From assembly GCA_026129095.1 (NCBI GenBank), contig JAHCIT010000001.1, forward strand, positions 496,245-560,244: a stretch of 64,000 bases of DNA, read 5' to 3'. Below, one piece after another: positions 21,172 to 26,459 of the stretch. Made by a program: the position numbers and the translations under genes. The notes beneath the pieces were generated by a model. The model was not told the DNA's origin. It searched no databases and saw only the letters and a list, made by a program, of their open reading frames with translations. Within the stretch, counting starts at the first letter, position 1; each line of letters starts with the position of its first letter. The DNA is from Deltaproteobacteria bacterium (GTDB taxonomy: Bacteria > JAGRBM01 > JAHCIT01).

Positions 21172-22281
21172 ATGAAGGCCAGTATGTCTGAATTCTGCCA
21201 ACGGCCCCGCAGCCAACGAGGCTGGATCACTGTCCTGACAGTGGTGCTGTTGACGTGTGCCTTCAATACCGGTTGTTTCTGGATTCAGTCAGTTTCAACG
21301 GCCAACGAGCGGCATTCTACCGAAACCCGTGACGGCTGGAAGCTGGCTATGCACCGGTACAAGCCTGAACAGCTATCGGTCGAAAAAGAACCCGTGTTGC
21401 TGGTTCATGGTTTCGCTTCCAACCGGTTTACCTGGTCACTCTCCAGCGACCGGTCCTTTGCCACTTACCTTCTTGAAAAAGGCTACGACGTCTGGGTAGC
21501 GGAACTTCGCGGTTCTGGCGAAAGCGATGGTTCGGCAGTCTTTACCGACCGCAAGGCCGACTACAATTTTGACACATATATGAAGGTGGATCTGCCCGCC
21601 CTCATTACTTACATCCGTTATACCACCCAGCGCGATAACCTGACCTACATTGGGCACAGCCTGGGGGCGATGCTGGGCTATGCATACCTGAGTACCAATC
21701 CTGATGGCGGTGGCGTGAAGAATCTTGTCGCCCTCTCCGGGCCATCCAACTTCAAGGATCGCAACTCGGCGATTGATTTCATCATGAAGGTAAAAGGCCT
21801 GTTCATGGTGACTCCAAAGATATATGCCGAGCTGGCGGCCAAGGCTGCCGCCAACAATCTCGGCTGGACCGACACACGGTTCGATGCTCTCCTGTGGAAC
21901 AACGAGGCGATCAACCCGCGCGCTATTTCCATGGTGGCCTACAACTCGGTATCCAATTTCCCGACAACCCTGCTTGAACAGGCTTCCGACTGGGTGAGCA
22001 CCGGTGAATTCCGCTCAGCAGACAAGCTGCTCAATTATGAGGAACTCCTGCAGCAGATCGAGATTCCCTGTTTTGTGGGTACTGGAAAGGTGGACGCCAT
22101 CGCCACACCACGGGCAGTGAAAACCGCCTTCGACAAAATCGGATCGAAGGACAAGGAATTGCGCGTTTTTGGCACTGCCAACGGCTTCGCAGTTGATTAC
22201 GGGCATCTGGATCTTGTGATGGGCGACAAGGTTGCCCTTGAGGTCTTTCCAACTGTCTTCACCTGGCTGGAGAATCACTGA
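21172..22281 (+). CDS. Alpha/beta hydrolase lipoprotein (first of three)
   Basis: A 369-residue alpha/beta hydrolase. The N-terminus has a hydrophobic signal ending in the lipobox-like AFNTGC. The oxyanion region is VLLVHGFASN, the nucleophile elbow GHSLG, and the likely acid and base are in TGKVDAIATP and the DYGHLDLVMGD histidine. Thus all triad positions are present. An upstream GGGCAGGG may serve the ATG at 21172; ATG 21184 is an alternative. It is followed after 5 bases by a paralogue, so the three genes look like an operon built by tandem duplication. Substrate unknown; lipase/esterase activity is plausible. Confidence 0.8.
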   Translation: MKASMSEFCQRPRSQRGWITVLTVVLLTCAFNTGCFWIQSVSTANERHSTETRDGWKLAMHRYKPEQLSVEKEPVLLVHGFASNRFTWSLSSDRSFATYLLEKGYDVWVAELRGSGESDGSAVFTDRKADYNFDTYMKVDLPALITYIRYTTQRDNLTYIGHSLGAMLGYAYLSTNPDGGGVKNLVALSGPSNFKDRNSAIDFIMKVKGLFMVTPKIYAELAAKAAANNLGWTDTRFDALLWNNEAINPRAISMVAYNSVSNFPTTLLEQASDWVSTGEFRSADKLLNYEELLQQIEIPCFVGTGKVDAIATPRAVKTAFDKIGSKDKELRVFGTANGFAVDYGHLDLVMGDKVALEVFPTVFTWLENH

Positions 22282-22286
22282 TTATC

Positions 22287-23402
22287 ATGATCTCCTTTCG
22301 CCATCTCTTTGCCGTCATAGCTGTGATGATTGCCTGCACAGGCTGCCAGGGACGAGCATTCAATCCGAATCTCCGGCTCGAACGTTTTCTGCCCAATGTT
22401 TCCCGGCGCCCGGACGTGCTGTTTACCCAGACCACCGATGGCAAGATACTCGCGCTTGAGCGTATCCAGCCGAACCAGATCAATCCTGACATGCCTCCTC
22501 TCATCTTCATTCACTCCGAGGGGTTTAACCGGAATTTCTGGACCGTGGCCGGAGAGCGATCGATCATTCACTTTTTCTCTCGCTATGGCTTTGATATCTG
22601 GCTGCTGGATCTGCGTGGCCATGGCGATTCGACGAAGCCGGAATGGTATAACGACGAAGACTGGGACTGGACGTTCGACGACTACGTGCATAAGGACATT
22701 CCCGCTGCCATCAGCTTCGTGCAGGGCCAGACCCGCTCCCGGCAAGTGACTCTCGTAGGGCATGGCGTGGGAGCGATGGCGATCTACGGATACCTCGAAC
22801 TCGAAAACTTCTTTGATGAAGTGGCGAATGTCATCCTTTTTTCGCCGCCCGCCTTTCTGTCTGAATTCAACGAGTCGGTCTCGAAAGCCATTGGCCTGGC
22901 TCGCCAGCTTGGCAAGGATGACCCCCTGACATTGCAGTTCGCACTGGAAAAGCCTGAAAAGCTAGAGCTCTTCCATGAGATGTACATAGCCGGCTCCTTT
23001 ATCCGGACGCCCATCATACGGCGACTCGGACTCACGGCCGTCGACAATATTTCGCCGCGGGTGATCCAGCAGGTACTCAAGTGGGTGGAGAACGAGGATT
23101 TCCTCTCGTCTGATCTCCAGCTCAGCTATCGCGTGAAGCTGGGCCTTGTGCGTGTACCAACCTTGATTATCTCCGGTGCGAAAGACCGTGTCGCTCCAGT
23201 TGGAGCGGTGAACTACGGTTTTCGTTCGCTCACGGTCTCGGACCGGGCCTTGCTCGTGTTCGGCCGGGACTATGGCTATATCCATGATTACAGCCACTTG
23301 GGACTCCTGCTCGGTGACGGCGCTTACGATGAAGTATTTCCCGTCGTATTCGAGTGGATCGAAGCACGGACGCCGGGCGTCCAGGCATGGGGGCGGTTCT
23401 GA
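22287..23402 (+). CDS. Alpha/beta hydrolase-like lipoprotein with nucleophile serine replaced by glycine (second of three)
   Basis: A 371-residue paralogue of its neighbours with a lipoprotein signal (VIAVMIACTGC). The fold motifs are kept: PLIFIHSEGFNR, WLLDLRGHGDS, acid in SGAKDRVAP, histidine in DYSHLGLLLGD. The nucleophile elbow reads GHGVG (codon GGC) where active members have GHSxG, so the normal serine nucleophile is missing. It is probably a pseudoenzyme or non-hydrolytic binding partner of the flanking active copies. The frame is otherwise intact, and its stop overlaps the next start by one base (TGATG). Confidence 0.8.
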   Translation: MISFRHLFAVIAVMIACTGCQGRAFNPNLRLERFLPNVSRRPDVLFTQTTDGKILALERIQPNQINPDMPPLIFIHSEGFNRNFWTVAGERSIIHFFSRYGFDIWLLDLRGHGDSTKPEWYNDEDWDWTFDDYVHKDIPAAISFVQGQTRSRQVTLVGHGVGAMAIYGYLELENFFDEVANVILFSPPAFLSEFNESVSKAIGLARQLGKDDPLTLQFALEKPEKLELFHEMYIAGSFIRTPIIRRLGLTAVDNISPRVIQQVLKWVENEDFLSSDLQLSYRVKLGLVRVPTLIISGAKDRVAPVGAVNYGFRSLTVSDRALLVFGRDYGYIHDYSHLGLLLGDGAYDEVFPVVFEWIEARTPGVQAWGRF

Positions 23403-24886
23403 TGAATACGCCTCGGCGGTATCTGGCACTTTTCTTTGCCGTAACTCTGATTGGCACTACGGCTGCCGAGGCACAGGAGTCATTGGGGTCTATTTCGGAT
23501 GATGCACCCACTGCCGAGGAAACCCATGAGTCCGGTGCGTCAGAAACTCCGCAGGAGACTGAAGCTGCCCCTTCCAATCCGGACGTCAAAGCACCCCCCG
23601 TCCCGGACCAGCGCTTCAAACCGGGCAAGGACGACTTCCCTTACGAGGCTCCTGATCCGGCCCTCAAGTATGCCGACGAGACATCGATCCCGATCACCGA
23701 GGCTGAGCGCCGGATAGGTGCCGGATCCCGCCGGTACGGCGAGGGCACCCTGCACCGGGTCAAGACCGACGATGGCTGGAAGATTGCGGTCCAGTATTAC
23801 GAAGCGTCCACCTACGAAAAACTGTATCCCGTCATTCTGGTTCACGGCGAAGGGATGAACCGTTACATTTTCGATTTCGGACGGAACCATTCGCTCGCAC
23901 GGTACCTGGCATCTCGGGGATATCCCACCTATGTCATTGAGCTCCGTGGCCATGGGTTGTCGTCAGTCGCTCTCGCGGCGCCATCAGCACGAACCACCTG
24001 GGTATTTGAGGATTACCTCAAGGACATTCAGGCAACGATAGATTTCGCCACCAAGCAGTTCGAAATCAACAAGGTGCTGTTGGTGGGACATTCAACCGGC
24101 GGCACGCTTGTATATGGAATCATGCAGAACGAACGGTATGCCCGGATGGTAGCCGGCGCGGTAACATTGGGTGCCCCCCTTCTCTACTACCATCCGAACG
24201 ATACGCTGACGTCTCTGTTCAACAACCGCGACAAGCTGTTCCAGAACCGGGATCTGGTGGAAGTTACCACTCGCTACGGCTATTACTTGCCTGCGCCATT
24301 CGCCAAAAACACCGAAACGCTGCTCGGAGTGCTATTCTTCAACGACTATTTCCTGAACAAGCATCGGCTGGAACGGTTCCTGGACCACGGCATCGAGAAC
24401 ATACGGGTCGATATCCTGCGCCAGATGTCGCTATGGCTTCAGGAAGAGAAGGTTTATGGCACTGAAGACACTACCGTTAAATACGTAGAAGACATGAATC
24501 TGATCAAGTCGCCGATCTGTTTCATGACCGGCTGGCGTGACAATTTCGTCGAACCTGAGACGGTTATCATGGCCTCCGAACTGGTCGAACCGGGCCTGCG
24601 GAAACTCATAAACTTTGGAAAGGTCAACGGACATAACGATAACTACGGGCACTTGGGGTACCTGCTGAATGACTACGCCCTGGAAGACGTGTATCCGGAA
24701 GTCGGGAAATGCCTGCACGAATGGACCGAACGTGCAGTGACCGAGGAGCTCGGCATTGTCCCTGAGCCGGTCCAGGAAGAGATTCCCGATGCAGAAAAGA
24801 AACCAGAAACTGCGCCTGAACAGCGTGAAGGTCAGGATCTGGTGCCAGAAGAGATCCCGTTCCGCGAGATTCTCCCCGGCTTCTGA
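23402..24886 (+). CDS. Secreted alpha/beta hydrolase with acidic N- and C-terminal extensions (third of three)
   Basis: A 494-residue exported protein. ATG 23402 gives a cleavable signal (LALFFAVTLIGTTAAEAQ). An acidic, Pro/Glu-rich linker follows (~25-85). The hydrolase domain has VILVHGEGMNR, ELRGHGLSS, nucleophile GHSTGG, acid in TGWRDNFVEPE and histidine in NYGHLGYLLND. The C-terminal ~45 residues are again Pro/Glu-rich. Its start overlaps the preceding stop, giving a coupled three-gene operon that ends at a strong hairpin 30 bases downstream. Likely periplasmic or envelope-associated; substrate unknown. Confidence 0.8.
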   Translation: MNTPRRYLALFFAVTLIGTTAAEAQESLGSISDDAPTAEETHESGASETPQETEAAPSNPDVKAPPVPDQRFKPGKDDFPYEAPDPALKYADETSIPITEAERRIGAGSRRYGEGTLHRVKTDDGWKIAVQYYEASTYEKLYPVILVHGEGMNRYIFDFGRNHSLARYLASRGYPTYVIELRGHGLSSVALAAPSARTTWVFEDYLKDIQATIDFATKQFEINKVLLVGHSTGGTLVYGIMQNERYARMVAGAVTLGAPLLYYHPNDTLTSLFNNRDKLFQNRDLVEVTTRYGYYLPAPFAKNTETLLGVLFFNDYFLNKHRLERFLDHGIENIRVDILRQMSLWLQEEKVYGTEDTTVKYVEDMNLIKSPICFMTGWRDNFVEPETVIMASELVEPGLRKLINFGKVNGHNDNYGHLGYLLNDYALEDVYPEVGKCLHEWTERAVTEELGIVPEPVQEEIPDAEKKPETAPEQREGQDLVPEEIPFREILPGF

Positions 24887-24915: not shown

Positions 24916-24951
24916 GACGCCCCGGATACTCGCCGAAGTATCCGGGGCGTC
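24916..24951 (+). terminator. Strong hairpin terminator after the hydrolase operon
   Basis: GACGCCCCGGATACT, loop CGCCGA, AGTATCCGGGGCGTC: a perfect 15-base stem with a 6-base loop, 30 bases after the stop codon. The downstream T-tract is weak (TTACC), so termination strength is inferred mainly from the stem. Confidence 0.75.
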
Positions 24952-25348: not shown

Positions 25349-26293
25349 TCAACTGAGCTCGACGGCTAAGTCAGCGGCTATCGGAGCCGGGGCATGCGAG
25401 GATTTGGCCGAGTGCTTTTCCCCAACCGATTCAGCACGAGCTATCTCGCCTTTCACGCCGACCTTGAGGACATTCGTCACTGCATTGTACCTAGGAAACA
25501 GTTCGCGCAGCACCTTCGATACTGACAGCAGGATATTGTACCCCCGGTTCTTCGCAATGTCGGGATTTTTCTGACCAAGCATCTCAAACCGCTTTTGCGC
25601 TTCGAGGAACCGTGAACCCTCGGGATCCATTACCGCTACTACACGAACAAAAAAGTTGCCGAAGAACAGCACAGCCCAAGTGAGCGAACCAAACAGGTTC
25701 AGATTCGACAGAAGCCGCGCCAGGTCAGCCGCACTGGGAGGTGCTGTCTCCTGCCTCCCAAACTCTTCCATCAAGTAAAAATCCATGGCTATATGCCGCG
25801 ACTCATCCTGGTTGATCTTCTCGATCACGGCGCGGGAAAGCGGGTCTTCAATATAATCATTCACTGCCCTGAGCAGCGCCACATCCAGCACCAGTTCTCC
25901 CAGCGTCACCATCGCTGAAGCAAAGGCAGGGTTAATCTCCTGGATGGTTCGTGTGATATAGCGGACCAGCATCGTGAGCCGCTCATCCGGCGTATAAATC
26001 CTGTAGTCATGGACATTAAAATAGTCGGCCAGCTTGGCCACTGCGACCGAATGCCGCACCTCATCAGCGTGGAAACTCTCATAGATCAGCTTTAACGTGG
26101 GATTGCTCACCTTTTTCGACAGTTCCAGGAATGTCAGGCCTGCTATCCGTTCCACGTAAATGAGATTGGTCAAGGCCTGGCAAACTTCGATCTCGTCAAA
26201 CTTCGAGAGGGCAATTGGTTGGCCTGTGTAATCGAAGTCATCGGCATCCCACTGCCCCTTCTGACAACGATCCAGCATTCGCTCTAGGTCCAT
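25349..26293 (-). CDS. Ferritin-like diiron protein
   Basis: A 314-residue, mostly helical protein with two ExxH-type iron-binding motifs, FHADEVRHS and NQDESRHIA, each preceded by a helix that should supply another glutamate (YVERIAG and VTLGELVLD). This is the four-helix di-metal carboxylate layout of the ferritin-like/ribonucleotide-reductase-R2-like superfamily. The function could be an oxygenase, oxidase or membrane-lipid desaturase-type enzyme; the substrate is unknown. ATG 26293 has GGGAGAG about 12 bases upstream and is preferred over 26335. It is divergent from the Deg protease. A second diiron protein lies at 45756-46739. Confidence 0.75.
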   Translation of the reverse strand: MDLERMLDRCQKGQWDADDFDYTGQPIALSKFDEIEVCQALTNLIYVERIAGLTFLELSKKVSNPTLKLIYESFHADEVRHSVAVAKLADYFNVHDYRIYTPDERLTMLVRYITRTIQEINPAFASAMVTLGELVLDVALLRAVNDYIEDPLSRAVIEKINQDESRHIAMDFYLMEEFGRQETAPPSAADLARLLSNLNLFGSLTWAVLFFGNFFVRVVAVMDPEGSRFLEAQKRFEMLGQKNPDIAKNRGYNILLSVSKVLRELFPRYNAVTNVLKVGVKGEIARAESVGEKHSAKSSHAPAPIAADLAVELS

Positions 26294-26459
26294 CGGATAA
26301 GCACTCTCCCCGCACCAGGCTCGCGACTGACGCATGCGTCATTTCTATTTTCTTCTAGCCCCAATCCCCTTTGGGGGCAAGGTTCCGGTTGCTCCCTCAG
26401 CCACCAGACTTCAGAATAAGTGCCCTCCTTACCGACTTCGCCCCGAAAAGGACTTCATA

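Follow-up and report, generated by a model that had tools for sequence, protein, structure and literature searches.

The middle gene of a set of three in the window, the 64,000-nucleotide stretch of DNA analyzed here, encodes a protein of 371 amino acids (B; 22287..23402, plus strand) that is predicted to be exported and has an alpha/beta-hydrolase fold without the catalytic nucleophile. Sequence comparisons strongly support the view that B is an old, selected pseudoenzyme of an acid-lipase-like family of alpha/beta hydrolases. It probably acts (at a likelihood of about 60%) as an exported pseudo-lipase that is co-translated with the active paralogue encoded downstream (C) and binds this paralogue, perhaps also the one encoded upstream (A), at the membrane. 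In eukaryotes, the regulation of an active enzyme by a related pseudoenzyme is well known; for bacterial hydrolases it is little documented, and a conserved, co-translated pair makes the role of the dead lipase for the live one directly testable in bacteria.

The paralogues A (21172..22281), B, and C (23402..24886) are arranged head to tail on the plus strand, and each of them has a Pfam match to the alpha/beta-hydrolase fold. Both A, a putative lipoprotein, and C possess an intact Ser-Asp-His triad, with GHSLG (AGC, 21658-21660) and GHSTG (TCA, 24092-24094) as the respective elbows, which agrees with the GHS motifs reported for them in a first-pass annotation of the same DNA. Only 5 nt separate A from B, and the stop codon of B overlaps the ATG start codon of C by 1 nt (TGATG). 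A perfect 15-bp hairpin located 3' of C (24916..24951, plus strand; -31.3 kcal/mol, z -5.9) is the probable terminator; together with the 228 bp between A and its upstream gene, it makes A-B-C look like a single transcription unit. The set is flanked by genes encoding an SDR epimerase, an AurF-like protein, and an HtrA-like protease; these neighbors do not explain its function, as the flanks in other phyla are different. The gene at 25349-26335, which is divergent from the adjoining HtrA-like protease gene, encodes a ferritin-like protein whose match to AurF is below the threshold, and an open reading frame at 7833-9131 matches a phage Mu F-like protein (PF04233) and is perhaps a prophage remnant.

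Although the match of B to the Pfam model Abhydrolase_1 is well above the curated cut-off (59.2 vs. 25.8 bits), the catalytic serine of the GxSxG motif is replaced by Gly160 (GGC, 22764..22766, plus strand), which turns the elbow into GHGVG. The acid and the histidine of the triad are retained as Asp300 (GAC, 23184..23186, plus strand) and His337 (CAC, 23295..23297, plus strand), two positions that are invariant in 46 aligned homologues, and the frame is open across all 371 codons. The first-pass annotation had described these features of B correctly, down to coordinates, strand, and codon, but had missed a further catalytic lesion in the HG motif of the oxyanion loop, which has degenerated to His76-Ser77 (22512..22517, plus strand) in the window and to HD in the orthologue from a second genome (G001). 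The lipoprotein signal that it had also proposed is plausible with respect to the cysteine: at the end of the signal peptide of B are two lipobox-like cysteines (Cys18/Cys20; 22338..22346, plus strand), and Cys20 is conserved in the G001 orthologue and two distant relatives, but the lipobox in the window itself (C-T-G-C) is weak. Because the nucleophile is absent and the oxyanion loop is altered, B is not expected to form an acyl-enzyme. It would thus appear to lack catalysis altogether; the invariant Asp-His pair could nevertheless allow some residual chemistry.

The loss of catalytic residues seems to have left the fold unaffected. In the AlphaFold2 model of B (mean pLDDT 89.4, pTM 0.87), the strand formed by residues 154-159 leads into the elbow at Gly160 and is followed by a helix (161-169), as in active enzymes; a relative from another phylum (G036) was modeled with a pLDDT of 92.1. 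In a Foldseek comparison, the structures nearest to B are those of lysosomal acid lipase and gastric lipase (TM about 0.72), and acid lipases also match B in a profile search against solved structures (E 1.6e-11), being the only clear relatives in this search by sequence. The gastric and lysosomal acid lipases (1k8q, 1hlg, 6v7n) have the elbow, the acid, and the histidine at the same positions as B. Unlike these enzymes, B has neither the nucleophile nor the glycine of the oxyanion loop, and it is a bacterial protein with predicted export. The elbow residue of alpha/beta hydrolases has a strained backbone, and the relief of this strain by glycine may explain why glycine is the replacement throughout.

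The age of the replacement is evident from the orthologue in G001, the single further genome of this phylum in the collection searched, which belongs to the same order as the genome of the window but to a different family. Contig C258 of G001 carries the same A-B-C set in the same gene order, with serine in the elbows of A and C and glycine (GHGIG, codon GGC) in that of B. The B proteins share 52% identity, the highest value of the three (A, 46%; C, 45%), and synonymous sites are near saturation, which implies that the glycine is old. An alignment of orthologues had been suggested in the first-pass annotation, with serine in the orthologues as the outcome that would speak against a selected pseudoenzyme; the glycine proved to be conserved. 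Scans of genome-contig and viral-contig collections with B found no close orthologue.

Homologues with a glycine elbow occur in at least three phyla. The list of 31 members, which stem from 30 genomes and 19 genera, comprises the best-scoring matches and is no exhaustive census; the loci are not independent, because one genus (g415) contributes seven of the genomes and another (g393) contributes five. Most come from a third, large phylum whose members have large genomes, probably Myxococcota, in which a profile search of 195 genomes detected at least 27 loci in 26 genomes, 15 genera, and four families. The elbow glycine is present in all 31 listed members, and the glycine of the oxyanion-loop HG motif is lost in 30 of them, whereas it is kept in 81 of 83 homologues with an elbow serine. 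Its position (77 in B) is occupied by Asp or Glu in 29 listed members, including those of the second phylum (G036 and G388), where HG is changed to PD, and by Ser in the window. The sole listed member that keeps the glycine (PGLG; G574, L171:1495-2730) is possibly an intermediate or a reversal. The Asp and His of the triad were seen at 30 of the 31 listed loci, the frame of G535 being broken in its record, and reading frames are intact in nearly all. A PxWxN loop signature is common to only four members. Elbow-serine homologues with about 30% identity are frequent in other phyla.

The glycine-elbow genes are almost invariably paired with an active sister. At 29 of the 30 listed loci whose downstream side is visible (G538, whose locus ends at a contig edge, was excluded), the next gene downstream is on the same strand and encodes a serine paralogue; the exception is G388, which has no adjacent serine partner. 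This count is based on score-ranked profile matches to the pseudoenzyme alone, plus the loci from the other two phyla, with a profile built from glycine-elbow members that mostly have partners; it does not rest on 20 neighborhoods fetched earlier, some of which had been picked as promising. Pseudoenzyme and partner overlap by 1 or 4 nt at 20 of 27 junctions measured and by 17 nt in G036, and a lipobox is present in almost all downstream partners. The wider neighborhoods vary: two loci of the large phylum (L140:2317-10393 and L177:3361-9074) have a gene for a protein kinase-like protein or a response regulator upstream of the pair and M16 peptidase genes downstream, whereas in G036 and G388 (L057 and L098) a DUF72 gene follows the glycine-elbow gene, or its partner if there is one. 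In the latter two genomes, the glycine-elbow gene is preceded by a gene for a membrane protein without a Pfam match, and no significant similarity was detected for these two membrane proteins.

Phylogenetic analysis suggests that pseudoenzymes and partners of the large phylum have a shared history. There, the partners form a clade of their own (100/99), and its branching order nearly repeats that of the pseudoenzymes, as expected from joint inheritance. The sampled glycine-elbow members fall into one supported group with the C proteins of the window and G001 (97/92), in which B and C of the window are weakly sisters. Constraining all glycine-elbow members to a single clade was not rejected (p-AU 0.475 and 0.626, the latter with a slightly higher likelihood for the constrained tree; 0.246 after removal of the trait columns), so that one origin of the glycine elbow and several origins are both compatible with the data. 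An orthologous relationship between C from the window and the large-phylum partners is disfavored, albeit not firmly rejected (lnL 22 lower when held together, p-AU 0.09). Because C is not clearly orthologous to these partners, there may have been more than one origin or rewiring of the pairing.

As judged from substitution rates, the glycine-elbow pseudoenzymes are under constraint and do not decay. Their dN/dS ratios in close pairs are about 0.12-0.4, mostly somewhat above those of the partners; the higher values in more distant pairs (up to about 0.75) coincide with less reliable synonymous counts. The proposal of a selected pseudoenzyme is thus borne out by this purifying selection and by the glycine in the orthologue and 29 further relatives. 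Between orthologues, identity in B is 61% for the active-site loops and 53% for the rest of the protein, a smaller contrast than in A (68 vs. 45%) and C (66 vs. 48%), which is expected if selection on B is weaker at the pocket and stronger elsewhere in the domain.

This smaller contrast between the loops and the rest also speaks against a rather unlikely alternative, in which B is a stand-alone protein that binds lipids or esters as a receptor, carrier, or chaperone, does not need A or C, and is co-transcribed with them because of a shared substrate. Such a role would be in line with the retention of the pocket fold and the Asp-His pair, the predicted export, and the absence of an adjacent partner in G388, and might be compared with that of the non-catalytic MPT51, which is reported to be related to the active enzymes of the antigen 85 group; yet it does not account for the near-universal overlap with a serine paralogue and the parallel branching of both genes. 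It is improbable that B has been re-purposed as an enzyme whose activity is independent of serine (e.g., a lyase, an isomerase, or a cofactor-free oxygenase), with His337-Asp300 as general base and an acid in place of the HG glycine. The Asp and His at 30 of 31 loci and the acid at position 77 in 29 of 31 are what such an activity would call for, but B of the window has Ser77 and no acid, the His in front of the Gly is also variable (VQG, GLG, GWG), and few residues are both shared among glycine-elbow members and rare among serine members. Decay of the gene, which the loss of a second catalytic feature might suggest, and a strain-specific mutation or sequencing error are practically out of the question, because the glycine was sequenced independently in 30 genomes with nearly all frames intact, dN/dS stays under 0.4 for close pairs, B is better conserved than A and C, and G001 has the same GGC codon.

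The preferred reading remains that of a pseudo-lipase that binds its active sister. B, having kept its fold, the Asp-His pair, and its export signal, would be co-translated with C via the overlapping stop and start codons, bind C (perhaps also A) at the membrane, and tune the activity, stability, or substrate access of C, by analogy with the action of ABHD5 on ATGL. The conserved co-translation with an active sister, with predicted export of both, suggests that B scaffolds, stabilizes, or regulates C; we infer both the physical contact and the direction of the effect. The first-pass annotation had envisaged a complex of B with its neighbors, which gains indirect support from gene order, the overlaps of 1-4 nt, and the parallel trees, although G388 lacks an adjacent partner; the comparative evidence points to C more than to A as the partner of B. 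More tentatively, and at less than even odds, the pairs might represent an ancient two-gene module, found in at least three phyla, whose pseudo-lipase, derived from a single Ser-to-Gly loss and with the oxyanion glycine mostly replaced by an acid, is the translationally coupled, obligate regulator or subunit of an active extracytoplasmic lipase. If so, bacteria would have a counterpart of ABHD5-type regulation, in which a dead relative controls a lipase.

The general type, a pseudo-alpha/beta-hydrolase beside an active paralogue, is already known. In mycobacteria, MPT51 and an active antigen 85 protein are encoded by adjacent genes. Like B, MPT51 (FbpC1) is reported to be an exported alpha/beta hydrolase of bacteria that is non-catalytic but has active relatives (Wilson 2004, cited in PMC8875947), but it is actinobacterial and belongs to another alpha/beta-hydrolase family. 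In ABHD5 (CGI-58), the nucleophilic serine is replaced as well, and the protein is a co-activator of the active lipase ATGL (PMC8850477); unlike B, it is eukaryotic and intracellular, has Asn instead of Gly, and its partner is a patatin and no paralogue. Neuroligins likewise have an extracytoplasmic esterase fold that lacks the catalytic serine and serves in protein binding (PMC12931606), but they are cell-adhesion proteins of animals from the carboxylesterase type B family. In the openly accessible papers searched, we found no description of the widespread bacterial pair analyzed here.

The Pfam models used label all these genes hydrolases, which calls for caution in annotation. Elbow residues other than Ser and Gly also occur: two genomes of the large phylum encode a paralogue with an Asp elbow (GHDIG, GHDLG; L135:4898-5989 and L136:4499-5617) and an intact HG motif, in each case directly downstream of a serine paralogue. 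Since epoxide hydrolases and haloalkane dehalogenases use Asp as their nucleophile, these paralogues may be a different enzyme.
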